A model generated the notes under the pieces. The model searched no databases. It saw only the letters and a list, made by a program, of their open reading frames with translations, and was not told where the DNA came from. The translations under genes and the position numbers were made by a program. A stretch of 36,521 nt of DNA, from positions 1 to 36,521 of the IMG/VR virus record IMGVR_UViG_3300010354_000246; one strand, given 5' to 3'. This document shows, piece by piece, positions 15,537 through 36,270 of this stretch (the first letter of the stretch is position 1; every line of letters begins with the position of its first letter). This DNA comes from a virus.

Positions 15537-15565
15537 ATACTACCCTACCGGCCCCCATAAGTCAA
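15537..15565 (-). promoter_or_regulatory. Leftward sigma-70 promoter before the 74-aa gene
   Basis: Minus strand TTGACT (15560-15565), 17 bases, TAGTAT (15537-15542). The predicted start near 15530 gives a leader of about 27 bases. It would feed the two small genes and the fibre operon. Confidence 0.7.
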
Positions 15566-24402: not shown

Positions 24403-24432
24403 TTGACACGCCGAATGCCACCCAGCTAGAAG
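24403..24432 (+). promoter_or_regulatory. Rightward promoter candidate with overlapping inverted repeat
   Basis: TTGACA (24403-24408, perfect), 18 bases, TAGAAG (24427-24432, weak). TGCCACCC/GGGTGGCA arms (24416-24447) span the -10 and could be an operator or a leader hairpin. Two GGTGAGAAAG copies lie just upstream. The next gene starts at 24542. Confidence 0.5.
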
Positions 24433-24541
24433 CACAGACGGGTGGCATAGTATCAGGAGACTACATCTTGCCACGTGTTGCGTAGGAATTCAACTTGGCG
24501 GGGGCCTTACGGCCTGCCCCATACATGAAGGAGGGAAGCAG

Positions 24542-29888: not shown

Positions 29889-30487
29889 AGGGCCAGGTCG
29901 ACCACCTGCTGCTGGCGACAGGCGAACTGCTGGACTTCAAGCTGACTTCCACCTACAAGGTGAAGCCGGGCCAGCCCCCTCGTGAGTGGGTCGAGCAGAC
30001 CAACATCTACAGGCGCATGCTGGAACGCGAGAAGGGCATGAGCATTCCTGCGGTTGCGATCCTTGCGATCCTGCGTGACTGGTCCAAGAGCCAGAGCCGC
30101 CGGTCACAGGACTATCCGCAGGCGCCCGTCATCAGGCTGGAGGTTCCGCTCTGGACACCGGAGCAGGCCGACGCTTTCATCGAGGAGCGTGTGCGTCTGC
30201 ATCAGGCGGCAGAGCCTGCGTCCTGCACCGAGGCTGACGTGTGGGCCAAGCCTGCCAAGTGGGCTGTCCATAAGCGGGGTGCTGCCAAGGCGATCCGGGT
30301 CTTCGATAATCCGATCGATGCGGAACAGCTTGCCAGCACAGCGTCTTCGTTGTATGTTGAGTACCGGCCGGGTGAAGCTGTTCGATGCCAAGACTGGTGT
30401 CAGGTGGCGCATCTGTGCCCGCAATGGCAAACAGATCCACGTAACAAACGCATCCCTTCCGTAGAGGAGAGTCTTTTCAATGGCTAA
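29846..30487 (+). CDS. PD-(D/E)XK nuclease, C-terminal fragment with Cys cluster
   Basis: From GTG 29846: GWKVKGQVDHLLLATGELLD-type strands with the active-site pattern VDHL then LDFKLTS (Asp-x-Lys), ILAILRDWSKSQ, APVIRLEVPLW and a final RCQDWCQVAHLCPQW. This is a Cas4-like C-terminal Cys cluster (Cx3Cx5C, perhaps with C227-type PASCTEADV) likely to hold an Fe-S site. The catalytic D and K are here but the His/Glu motif (HHIIER) is in the first fragment. No ribosome site precedes the GTG. It stops 8 bases inside the Sak4-like gene. Confidence 0.7.
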   Translation: MEATLYAEYAGWKVKGQVDHLLLATGELLDFKLTSTYKVKPGQPPREWVEQTNIYRRMLEREKGMSIPAVAILAILRDWSKSQSRRSQDYPQAPVIRLEVPLWTPEQADAFIEERVRLHQAAEPASCTEADVWAKPAKWAVHKRGAAKAIRVFDNPIDAEQLASTASSLYVEYRPGEAVRCQDWCQVAHLCPQWQTDPRNKRIPSVEESLFNG

Positions 30488-31280
30488 GTTCGAAGCGTCG
30501 GCGCTTCCGCCCCGCATCCTGATCTGCGGCGAGCCCGCCTCCGGCAAGACCGGCGCCCTGGCGCAGCTTGCCAACTCCGGCTATCGCCTGCTGATCCACG
30601 ACTTCGACAACAACAGCCGCGTCATCGGGTCCTACCTGAAGCCGGGCGCTGCTGACGTGTACCTTCAGACCTATGCGGTCGCGAAGATCACCAACACCAA
30701 CCTGTTCGGGGGCACGTCCGTTGCGCCGAAGCAGGCCGTCGACTCGATGCGTACCTTCTGCAAGCTCCTTGAGCATTGGAAGACGCCGACCGAAGACCTT
30801 GGTCCGATTGCCAACCTGACATCCAAGGATGTCATCGTGATCGACAGCGGCACCTTCCTTGGTGAAATGCTGCTGCTGGCTGCGCACGAAGACCCCGAGA
30901 CCAAGCGTGACCTGCGCTCCCTCTACAATGTGGCGGGCCGCTACTACGGTGCGATCCTCGATCACCTCACTGGCCCGAAGGTCGGCGCCTCCGTGATCGT
31001 GCTGACGCACATCATGCAGACCGGCGAGAAGGACGACCAAGGGAAGATCGTGGGCAAGGCCCGTGACATTCCGGTGGGCGTGGGCGAGAAGTTCTCGAAG
31101 AAGATGCAGACCTACTTCTCTGACATCTGGCACCTCGAAGTGGGGCGCGACGGCAAGCGTTCCTTCAAGACCAGCGCAACCGACAAGGCTTCGCTGCGAT
31201 CCTCCGCACCCAACCTGATCAAGCCTGTCGAGGACTTCGACCTCGCGTCCATGCTTGATCGCCTGACCGGGAGCAAGTAA
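30480..31280 (+). CDS. Sak4-like / AAA_24 recombination ATPase (266 aa)
   Basis: Walker A CGEPASGKTGAL (residues 16-27), Walker B DVIVIDSG (117-124) and a strand ending VIVLTHIMQTG resemble the small RecA-core proteins of phages (Sak4/AAA_24) that promote single-strand annealing together with an SSB. GAGGAGAG lies upstream. It follows the nuclease and precedes an ssDNA-binding-like gene, the usual trio for phage recombination and replication. Confidence 0.85.
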   Translation: MAKFEASALPPRILICGEPASGKTGALAQLANSGYRLLIHDFDNNSRVIGSYLKPGAADVYLQTYAVAKITNTNLFGGTSVAPKQAVDSMRTFCKLLEHWKTPTEDLGPIANLTSKDVIVIDSGTFLGEMLLLAAHEDPETKRDLRSLYNVAGRYYGAILDHLTGPKVGASVIVLTHIMQTGEKDDQGKIVGKARDIPVGVGEKFSKKMQTYFSDIWHLEVGRDGKRSFKTSATDKASLRSSAPNLIKPVEDFDLASMLDRLTGSK

Positions 31281-31494: not shown

Positions 31495-31526
31495 CATGCT
31501 GGGCGTGGACCTGAAGATGAAGTGAC

Positions 31527-31555
31527 TTGCATTTTGGCGGTAACCATGGTATACA
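31527..31555 (+). promoter_or_regulatory. Promoter of the HNH cassette
   Basis: TTGCAT (31527-31532), 17 bases, TATACA (31550-31555). The spacer is one arm of a long inverted repeat; the start point would fall in the centre of a 10-bp-arm palindrome. Confidence 0.7.
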
Positions 31556-31601
31556 GATCAAATTGATCTGTAACAGGAGTTACTATATGGTTACCGCCAA
31601 A
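31533..31601 (+). promoter_or_regulatory. Nested inverted repeats occluding the HNH start codon
   Basis: TTTGGCGGTAACCAT (31533-31547) is the exact 15-base reverse complement of 31587-31601, which begins with the start codon. Inside lies a perfect palindrome with 10-bp arms (TACAGATCAA at 31552-31561, one central base, TTGATCTGTA at 31563-31572). RNA entering from upstream would pair the start codon away; RNA begun at the internal promoter lacks the upstream arm. Confidence 0.85.
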
Positions 31602-32072
31602 TCTATTCCCGCTTTTGACGCGACGCGCTTCTGGAAAAATGTGGACAAGACAGGAGGTAAAAACGCTTGTTGGCCTTGGATTGCCAGCGTAAACAAGTCC
31701 GGTTATGGACAAGTAAATATCGGGGGAAGCATATACAAATGTCATCGAGTGGCACTTCATCTGGATAGCCCGGCTCCCTCTAATGACTTGTATGCATGTC
31801 ATACTTGTGATAACTCCAGGTGCTGCAACCCCGCTCACTTGTACTGGGGAAGCGCCAAGCGTAACACGAATGATCGGGATGAAAGGGGTCGCAGGAAGGG
31901 ACCGGCAGGTGTAACTCACCACAAAGCCAAGCTCGACCCGGAAAAAGTTCGCGAGATTCGCCGCCTAGCTTCGTCTATGACACAGCGTGAACTGTCCGCT
32001 ATGTTTGGCGTAGCGCAGGGGGTTATCTGGAATGTCATCCACCGAAAGTTTTGGAAAGAAGTGGATGATTAG
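31587..32072 (+). CDS. HNH homing endonuclease with HTH tail (161 aa)
   Basis: An HNH_3-type domain has CWPWIASVNKSGYGQVNIGG, KCHRVALHLD (catalytic His about 53) and CHTCDNSRCCNPAHLYWGSA, with Cys pairs that bind a structural metal. The tail KLDPEKVREIRRLASSMTQR, then ELSAMFGVAQGVIWNVIHRK, is a helix-turn-helix for DNA binding as in many free-standing phage HNH enzymes. The ATG follows AGGAG. It sits in its own transcription unit between two replication genes and probably spreads by cutting HNH-free relatives at this place. Confidence 0.88.
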   Translation: MVTAKSIPAFDATRFWKNVDKTGGKNACWPWIASVNKSGYGQVNIGGSIYKCHRVALHLDSPAPSNDLYACHTCDNSRCCNPAHLYWGSAKRNTNDRDERGRRKGPAGVTHHKAKLDPEKVREIRRLASSMTQRELSAMFGVAQGVIWNVIHRKFWKEVDD

Positions 32073-32074
32073 GC

Positions 32075-32103
32075 TTGACGGCGGGGCTGGCCTCCCGTAA
32101 AAC
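32075..32103 (+). promoter_or_regulatory. Promoter candidate before the ssDNA-binding-like gene
   Basis: TTGACG (32075-32080), 17 bases, TAAAAC (32098-32103). The -35 is near-perfect and the -10 moderate. It may restore expression of genes downstream of the HNH insertion. Confidence 0.5.
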
Positions 32104-32145
32104 AACCTTGTCCCACGGTGGACAAAACACGATGGAGAAGATGTT

Positions 32146-32601
32146 ATGGACTTGTTCGACCACGTCATTTCGGAAACCGCTTCCGAGCGCCCGGCTTTCC
32201 GGCAGGCTCCGGCGGGTGACTATCTGGTGACGGTCCAGTCTGTGAAGTTCGTCAAGGCGAACTCCGGTACGCAGGGTATCGAGCTGACCTACACGATGGT
32301 TGAGCCGATGCACGACGAGGACATGGAGGGCGTTGAGCTTCCGAAGTGCCGCCTCCGTGACACCCAGTGGATCACGGAGAAGACTATCGGTTACGTGCAG
32401 GAACGCCTTGCCCGTATCTCGCCCGAGGTTGTGGGCAACACGATCCGCGAAGTCGCCGACATTCTGCCCGGCAACGACGTGGTGGTGAACGTGTCGCACG
32501 AGACTTCCAACCGTGACGGCACGCCACTGAACACGCCCCGCCTGAAGGTCGAGCGTTACTACTCGGTCGACTGGTACATGAACAACAAGAAGGCCGCCTA
32601 A
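32146..32601 (+). CDS. ssDNA-binding-like protein (DUF669-type, 151 aa)
   Basis: RQAPAGDYLVTVQSVKFVKA, then NSGTQGIELTYTMVEP and an acidic loop, is the beta-barrel opening seen in DUF669-like phage proteins that sit beside Sak4-type ATPases. The end KVERYYSVDWYMNNKKAA lacks the usual acidic tip. It probably coats single strands during recombination and replication. The gene follows its own promoter candidate and ends before a UUCG-loop hairpin. Confidence 0.72.
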   Translation: MDLFDHVISETASERPAFRQAPAGDYLVTVQSVKFVKANSGTQGIELTYTMVEPMHDEDMEGVELPKCRLRDTQWITEKTIGYVQERLARISPEVVGNTIREVADILPGNDVVVNVSHETSNRDGTPLNTPRLKVERYYSVDWYMNNKKAA

Positions 32602-35641: not shown

Positions 35642-35681
35642 GAATCAGGAGATCGTCTACAACAGGTCACTTGCATTTTAA
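35607..35681 (+). pseudogene. Remnant of the old start of DNA polymerase part 2
   Basis: From GTG 35607 (GAAAGG upstream) the frame reads VRTITDMTPTPENQEIVYN, the same as the intact copy at 36230 (RTIQTQGLQITPENQEIVYN), and then runs into the HNH cassette and stops (RSLAF). It is a severed 5' end left by the insertion. Confidence 0.75.
35634..35663 (+). repeat. Duplicated insertion flank, left copy
   Basis: The 30 bases coding TPENQEIVYN match 36263-36292 at 26 positions. All four differences are third-position and synonymous. It contains the hairpin CTCCTGA-GAA-TCAGGAG. Confidence 0.85.
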
Positions 35682-35699
35682 CCTGCGGCCTGTTATAAT
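35671..35699 (+). promoter_or_regulatory. Promoter of the HNH-AP2 cassette
   Basis: TTGCAT (35671-35676), 17 bases, TATAAT (35694-35699): a perfect -10. The -35 is shared with the other HNH cassette. Flanking AACAGG/CCTGTT arms surround the spacer. Confidence 0.8.
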
Positions 35700-35721
35700 G
35701 CCGGCTTGAAGGGAGGGCACC

Positions 35722-36270
35722 ATGCCTATCGAAATCAAGCTGACGAACAGTGACCGCGTTGCCTATGTGGACGAGGCTGACTATCCCCTTGTCAAAGGCT
35801 ATGTGTGGTGGGAACACTTTCCTACACAGACAGACCGTTTGAGCTATGCTTACGGAATGAAACTGCCTCGCACCAGAACGGGGGAGCGCGTAGTTAAGAT
35901 GCACCGTCTGATACTGGGCTTTACTAAAAAAGATCCGTTAATAGACCATGTGGATGGCAACGGGCTGAACAACTGCCGGAGCAACTTACAGCCCGTTACG
36001 ATGGCGCAGAATTTACAGAAAGCTAACTTCGACCCGGAAAGAAATCCGCGAAAGGTCCATTCCAAGTACCGGGGCGTAAGCTACCTAAAGTGGTATGGTA
36101 AGTACATGGCATATGTGAATTGCCAAGGAAAGCGAGAGTATCTAGGATACTTCGATACGGCAGAAGAGGCTGCCCGCGCGCGGGATGCCAAAGCAAAACA
36201 ACTCCACGGTAAATATGCGAGGTTGAACTTTGCGAACGATCCAGACCCAAGGCTTGCAGATAACTCCTGA
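35722..36270 (+). CDS. HNH-AP2 homing endonuclease (182 aa)
   Basis: An HNH domain (MHRLILGFTKKDPLIDHVDG, NGLNNCRSNLQPVTMAQN) is joined to an AP2-type DNA-binding domain (SKYRGVSYLKWYGKYMAYVN, REYLGYFDTAEEAARARDAK, LHGKYARLNF). This is a standard free-standing phage homing enzyme. GGGAGGG lies upstream of the ATG, and the cassette has its own promoter. It interrupts the start of polymerase part 2; its 3' end overlaps the new TTG start of that gene by 41 bases. Confidence 0.9.
   Translation: MPIEIKLTNSDRVAYVDEADYPLVKGYVWWEHFPTQTDRLSYAYGMKLPRTRTGERVVKMHRLILGFTKKDPLIDHVDGNGLNNCRSNLQPVTMAQNLQKANFDPERNPRKVHSKYRGVSYLKWYGKYMAYVNCQGKREYLGYFDTAEEAARARDAKAKQLHGKYARLNFANDPDPRLADNS

Follow-up and report, generated by a model that had tools for sequence, protein, structure and literature searches.

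A start-codon hairpin formed on read-through messages may insulate a mobile HNH endonuclease gene in a phage recombination operon

We propose, at a probability of about two in three, that the HNH endonuclease gene at positions 31587 to 32072 (plus strand, 161 aa) of the 36,521-nucleotide viral DNA analyzed here (the window) is an insulated expression unit, that is, a mobile, homing-type gene lodged in a recombination/replication operon and predicted to be silent on messages that read through from upstream. The inverted repeat at its start, the promoter elements, the difference between the predicted folds, their conservation and their travel with the gene were all computed here. As we picture it, messages from upstream promoters would contain both arms of a 15-bp stem in which the AUG and codons 2 to 5 are buried, and this buried start would block translation initiation. 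Transcription from the gene's own promoter would begin near 31562, which is downstream of arm 1; the short message would therefore lack that arm and its start codon would be open. The dose of the nuclease would then be set by the promoter of the cassette rather than by the host operon, and a temporal switch would not be needed. An earlier note on this DNA had claimed silencing on read-through messages and expression from an internal promoter. That claim gains from the energetics with an upstream-shuffle control, from changes that preserve pairing, from the movement of the control region together with the HNH gene and from a similar layout at two unrelated loci; the use of the promoter, the start near 31562, the fold in vivo and the translation block, hence the silencing itself, are what we infer.

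The HNH gene lies on a replaceable cassette

The HNH protein matched PHROG 1872 (endonuclease, E=4e-25) and PHROG 59 (HNH, E=1e-23), with a further match to Pfam zf-His_Me_endon that fell under the cut-off (E=1e-3) and a weak similarity to the zinc/active-site loop of I-PpoI (E=0.015). Residues C71-H72-C74 and C79-C80-N81-P82-H84 were invariant in relatives. Judged by these similarities, the protein belongs to the HNH (His-Me finger) endonucleases of PHROG 1872/59. By eye, its C-terminal part resembles a helix-turn-helix. Upstream in the operon is a gene for a Sak4-like recombination ATPase (30480 to 31280, plus strand; AAA_24, PHROG 124), followed by a small open reading frame remnant (31496 to 31525, plus strand), and downstream is the gene for a DUF669-type single-strand DNA binding protein (SSB; 32146 to 32601, plus strand). 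No terminator-like site was found on the plus strand between 23.8 and 35.2 kb, and read-through into the HNH gene is therefore expected. The Sak4 protein had no match in the isolate phage collection and none in the genome contigs, while a DNA similarity search of isolates returned only short matches, located in other HNH genes. A search of the window and four relatives against Rfam 15 gave no match at the gathering score.

To place the gene among related phages, 60 Sak4 relatives were taken from viral contigs, and in seven of them, as in the window, Sak4 and the DUF669 SSB gene are separated by an HNH gene. Comparison of the window with two HNH-less relatives (L004 and L005) showed flanks of 94 to 98% nucleotide identity, with homology lost at about 31500 to 31525 and regained at about 32155; the small open reading frame remnant is longer in these two relatives, the common end being GGGCGTGGACCTGAAGATGAAGTGA. 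Similarly, HNH-bearing L059 and HNH-less L047 and L053 share flanks of 95 to 96% identity, their difference extending from the Sak4 stop to roughly SSB codon 3. Bounded by these breaks in homology, the replaced segment (approximately 31526 to 32154, plus strand) is a single unit that holds the HNH gene with its own promoter, arm 1 included, and its hairpin, together with a substituted SSB promoter and leader. On its left side, the swapped stretch of the window begins with the -35 box. This presence or absence between near-identical genomes matches, at the sequence level, the pattern of a free-standing homing endonuclease, and we regard the segment as a homing-type HNH cassette with putative cleavage of the HNH-less allele.

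Two inverted repeats and a predicted extended -10 promoter at the HNH start

The earlier note had described a perfect 15-bp inverted repeat, one arm in a promoter spacer and the other beginning at the HNH start codon. Both the repeat and its placement are borne out exactly by the coordinates. Arm 1 (31533 to 31547, plus strand; TTTGGCGGTAACCAT) and arm 2 (31587 to 31601, plus strand; ATGGTTACCGCCAAA) are 100% complementary and lie 39 nt apart. Of the 17 spacer bases that separate TTGCAT from TATACA, arm 1 takes up 15, and it would be present in RNA only when transcribed from upstream; arm 2 consists of the ATG and codons 2 to 5. Among perfect inverted repeats of at least 11 bp (gap 3 to 100), this was the sole one in the 36.5-kb window, and ten dinucleotide shuffles of the window averaged 1.3 repeats for 11 bp, 0.2 for 12 bp or longer, 0.1 for 13 bp and 0.0 for 14 and 15 bp. 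Inside it lies a second, 10-bp inverted repeat (31552 to 31572, plus strand), which the earlier note did not contain, with arms at 31552 to 31561 and 31563 to 31572 (TACAGATCAA-A-TTGATCTGTA) and with its centre on the predicted transcription start (about 31562). Its core, AGATCA-NNN-TGATCT, is kept in relatives; among the close cassettes the arms are invariant and the centre alone varies.

The predicted promoter consists of a -35 box, TTGCAT (31527 to 31532, plus strand; TTG[C/T]AT in L045, L049 and L026), and an extended -10 element, TGG-TATACA (31547 to 31555, plus strand), of which TGGTATA is invariant in the window and the same three relatives. Against the consensus, the -35 box scores 3/6 and the -10 hexamer (31550 to 31555) 4/6, so both are weak, and the site was absent from the hits of a 9-of-12 promoter scan of the window. 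Nevertheless, the pattern TTGNNN-N16-18 with TGNTATA has only three matches in the window on both strands; two of these matches, each opening with CTTGCATTTT, are promoters of HNH genes, one for each of the two in the window. Because the extended -10 is this rare in the window, the HNH promoter is credible despite its weak hexamers, and by its motifs it is of the ordinary extended -10, sigma-70-like type. The second HNH gene (35722; region 35670 to 36270) encodes AP2 and HNH_3 domains and has the extended -10 promoter CTTGCATTTT-TATAAT; no relatives of it were found in viral contigs.

No later-class promoter was found for the HNH gene, and the other promoters of the lineage (TTGAC-N17-TA) are also sigma-70-like. 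With no separate promoter class, a late-timing reading was dropped. The earlier note's suggestion that the nuclease is limited to a chosen time is thus unsupported, because the promoter is sigma-70-like and no temporal switch was found; the unit would work like the known read-through hairpin systems, with no timing evident.

The predicted cost of opening the HNH start depends on sequence upstream of the start site

The predicted RNA fold of 31527 to 31640 had an energy of -39.1 kcal/mol, compared with -22.7 for dinucleotide shuffles (z of -5.0). It is made of the outer and inner stems, which form a long, nearly continuous rod with the AUG paired in a stem and the Shine-Dalgarno sequence AGGAG (31575 to 31579, plus strand) unpaired in an internal loop, the latter a further detail absent from the earlier note and one that counts against the proposed block. 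The fold was retained in a 440-nt prediction. We then calculated the opening cost, defined as the predicted energy needed to open positions -14 to +6, for a long leader, which includes 60 nt of sequence before the predicted start site, and for the short, promoter-initiated RNA. For the HNH gene of the window it was 15.3 kcal/mol in the read-through RNA versus 7.2 in the promoter-initiated RNA. When only this 60-nt upstream part was shuffled (n=60), the cost fell to 7.8 +- 1.2 and none of the 60 shuffles reached 15.3.

Relatives behaved alike to different degrees. The long and short values were 15.7 and 6.7 in L049 (0/60 upstream shuffles as high), 11.4 and 6.7 in L045 (2/60) and, as a weaker effect, 13.5 and 9.2 in L026 (3/60), with no clear rise in L025 (7.5 versus 6.2) and L027 (6.3 versus 6.8). 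No upstream-dependent opening cost was seen for the SSB gene in the window or in L009, nor for the second HNH gene, which was rejected as a further example (14.1 long versus 14.2 short) although its promoter is of the same type. Taken alone, the opening cost at the HNH start ranks 4 of 37 genes in the GC-rich window; opening energy by itself was rejected as a test, high values being too frequent across this GC-rich genome. According to these models, what sets the HNH start apart is that its opening cost depends on what lies upstream of the start site, not the cost as such. Both the energetics and the upstream-shuffle control thus predict that the hairpin over the HNH translation start needs sequence lying upstream of the internal start site.

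Pairing is retained in related cassettes

Four of the HNH-bearing relatives (L045, L046, L049 and L059) have near-identical cassettes, with HNH proteins 78 to 79% identical to that of the window. Across the window, L045, L049 and L026, the outer stem was paired in 90% of cells. In two of its pairs both partners changed (GC/UA/CG at columns 17-79 and GC/AU at columns 20-76), and three further pairs vary one-sidedly, mostly to G-U. For both stems together, 88% of cells were paired in register versus 30 to 44% when slid by 1 to 3 columns. The covariation of the HNH stems was not significant with only four distinct close cassettes (71/500 in the shuffle control). In these stems G-U cells outnumbered A-C cells by 8 to 2, an excess that, as far as sequence can tell, favours plus-strand RNA over double-stranded DNA. 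L025 and L027 carry a different repeat (AACGGGCGG/CCGCCCGTT and AATGGGCGG/CCGCCCATT), with a C-G to T-A exchange between them, whose arm 1 is at the -10 end and whose arm 2 is at about codons 8 to 11, so that it encloses the start region. The earlier note had made its reading depend on the arms being conserved in related cassettes; pairing is indeed retained in the close relatives, only partially in L026, and L025 and L027 have their own repeat instead.

The same comparison bears on a serious rival to start-codon hiding, namely that the repeats are DNA operators at the HNH promoter, serving a phage or host repressor or the HNH protein itself, as I-TevI acts over its late promoter. The inner palindrome AGATCAAATTGATCT (31552 to 31572) would suit such a site, since its centre coincides with the predicted start site and the close cassettes show no variation in its arms; moreover, it holds two GATC sites, which methylation could affect, and a role for a protein or for methylation is possible. 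However, the changes in the outer arms retain RNA pairing via G-U and in doing so break the DNA symmetry, and L025 and L027 are without the inner palindrome. Autorepression by the HNH protein in the manner of I-TevI was rejected, as the promoter region was no more similar to the HNH-less allele, in which a homing site is expected, than shuffles were. Overall, we consider an operator unlikely.

Arms also straddle the SSB promoter and other internal promoters

In the HNH-less relatives, the SSB promoter (TTGAC[A/G]-N17-TAT) bears two interleaved pairs of arms in the order A-B-A'-B', with A around the -35 box and B running from the -35/spacer to the start-site region. By its sequence layout, this order is that of an H-type pseudoknot. 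Aligning 19 distinct HNH-less loci (L004 to L058; e.g., L009:1340-1441), with the diverged L028 left out, we found that A was 100% paired and B 92.7% paired, and that 11 of the 18 pairs had changed on both sides. The covariation was 0.429, compared with 0.201 +- 0.018 in shuffles (0/500) and 0.06 to 0.11 in slid alignments, and there were 24 G-U cells versus 13 A-C cells. By eye, the L028 leader has its own arms (AAGAGGAG/CTCCTCTT and GACGC/GCGTC). An autoregulatory site like the pseudoknot of T4 gene 32 is one possibility for this element, and a role at the DNA level is another.

In the HNH-bearing phages, these interleaved arms are replaced. The SSB promoter that the cassette brings (TTGACG-N17-TAAAAC with a 5'-leader stem TTGTCC/GGACAA; 32075 to 32125, plus strand) is without them. 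The SSB mRNA would begin with that small stem-loop (32108 to 32125 in the window), for which relatives have GTCAC/GTGAC or TGTTC/GAACA, and which is apparently kept through paired changes.

Two other promoter-like sites in the window carry stems. On the minus strand (15565 to 15522), TTGACT-N17-TAGTAT has its -10 as the loop of a 14- to 15-bp stem; it was matched in 13 contigs (L183 to L195), where the arms change together from GGGGGCC/GGCCTTC to GGAAGCC/GGCTTCT, and AGCTTTT comes next, so that a terminator function is also possible. On the plus strand (24403 to 24448; also L097 at 11313), TTGACA-N18-TAGAAG has 9-bp arms (ATGCCACCC/GGGTGGCAT), arm 1 within the spacer and arm 2 past the start site. 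Straddling stems were found at 13% of 47 non-coding promoter-like sites versus 2% in swapped pairs, with 8% in a coding control; the 47 sites were thinned at 70% identity and still include homologous promoters from different phages. Promoter-straddling stems as a general feature are therefore a lead, not proof.

These elements are relevant to the other serious rival, in which the stem is a double-stranded RNA site for processing or decay: RNase III or a similar nuclease would cut the read-through RNA, separating or destroying its HNH part. The outcome for expression may be similar, with a nuclease rather than a hidden start codon as the agent. A long, near-continuous rod of outer and inner stems would make a fitting substrate, and the arms at 15565 and 24403 straddle internal promoters without covering a start codon. 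Against this, arm 2 of the close cassettes falls precisely on the start codon, and it is specifically at this place that the opening cost increases; no such increase is seen for the SSB gene, whose arms cover its promoter and leave its start free. We hold processing to be improbable as the main role of the HNH stem.

More tentatively, and with a chance that we put well below even, start-codon hiding at the HNH gene could be one form of a lineage-wide device. Arms straddling internal promoters (the pseudoknot-topology element at SSB and hairpins at two or three others) would fold in read-through RNA and not in promoter-started RNA, so that each internal promoter would open an insulated unit; the HNH version would have shifted to cover the start codon, and the inserted HNH cassette would take the place of the SSB element.

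A similar layout at unrelated HNH loci

TGNTATA at -34 to -41 occurred in 7 of 76 distinct HNH relatives (9.2%, versus a background of 0.7%), and in all 7 of these loci hairpin arms overlap that promoter. The counts are small and include related family members, five of the loci belonging to the cassette family of the window (three of the window type plus L025 and L027); the remaining two are L153 and L154, from unrelated phages. The opening cost of the HNH start was 27.1 long versus 7.3 short in L153 and 8.6 versus 1.3 in L154, where 4/60 upstream shuffles were as high. In both (L153:1434-1477 and L154:1404-1441), the -10 of the promoter lies inside arm 1 and the stem covers or abuts the Shine-Dalgarno sequence; by our own reading of the open reading frames, a capsid-like gene immediately precedes the HNH gene. 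Judging from these features, the two HNH genes have a layout similar to that of the window, made from unrelated sequence. A general HNH-leader hairpin was rejected, since only a minority of the 76 loci would have it. A long upstream open reading frame ends at the HNH start in 12 of the 76, and in Pam5 and BUCT566 the annotated HNH gene overlaps its predecessor, without a separate leader.

An incidental repeat, left by the insertion or imposed by overlapping sequence and with no regulatory role, would accord with a hairpin near the edge of the inserted segment and with an opening energy that alone is unexceptional for the genome. It is nonetheless very improbable, given a repeat far beyond shuffles, pairing retained in diverged cassettes and the similar layout from unrelated sequence in L153 and L154. 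Finally, we give almost no credence to a start of the HNH protein at TTG 31527, which would make the repeat merely coding sequence: the frame is open from 31527 to the HNH stop (181 aa) and, by inspection, in the L045 leader, but the L026 leader has an in-frame TAG by inspection, a good Shine-Dalgarno sequence lies 7 nt before the ATG at 31587, and the relatives align from M1.

Discussion

In phage T4, a hairpin is described as silencing the genes for I-TevI, I-TevII, I-TevIII and segB on transcripts from upstream, and an internal late or middle promoter frees them (PMC2988022). The proposed control of the HNH gene is like theirs in that a structure would hide the translation start only on upstream transcripts, with a promoter at the 5' arm giving short messages without that arm, and in that a homing endonuclease sits inside another transcription unit. 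The differences are threefold. T4 has promoter recognition modified by the phage, which makes a time switch, whereas the promoter here is extended -10 and sigma-70-like, with no switch evident. T4 hides the ribosome binding site, while the HNH gene of the window would pair its AUG and loop out the Shine-Dalgarno sequence. Lastly, the Tev genes are intronic and the HNH gene is free-standing.

In this last respect, a close counterpart is mobE of Aeromonas phage Aeh1, a free-standing HNH endonuclease under the same hairpin/internal-promoter control (as described in PMC2988022). Both are free-standing HNH genes in a phage operon; the hairpin over the start and the downstream promoter of its own that mobE has are predicted for the HNH gene of the window. 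Aeh1, however, is T4-like. For the phage of the window, the Sak4 protein found no counterpart among the isolates of the phage collection, and a T4-type late promoter was not observed. For the T4 lysozyme gene e, soc and 49, long transcripts are silent and short ones translated, with about a 100-fold effect for e (PMC3014915). The same is proposed for the HNH gene of the window, but those genes are not mobile and have late promoters.

A further likeness concerns the neighbouring gene. In T4, segG lies beside gene 32, whose leader has a pseudoknot (PMC535899); here, an HNH cassette lies just upstream of a DUF669 SSB gene, and the SSB leaders of HNH-less relatives have arms of pseudoknot topology. 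The likeness is one of layout. Unlike those of gene 32, the SSB arms overlap the promoter and would be in RNA only by read-through, and they are lost, not kept, where the HNH cassette takes their place. Should the SSB promoter arms function at the RNA level, they would be a leader element comparable to the gene 32 pseudoknot, possible only in read-through RNA.

Overall, these comparisons indicate that the HNH gene and its control region pass on together as one cassette. They also indicate that hiding a homing nuclease on read-through messages, a strategy known from T4, has arisen in or spread to phages that are not T4-like, there with ordinary sigma-70-type promoters. The reason for it would then be to insulate a selfish gene from expression by its host operon, rather than timing.
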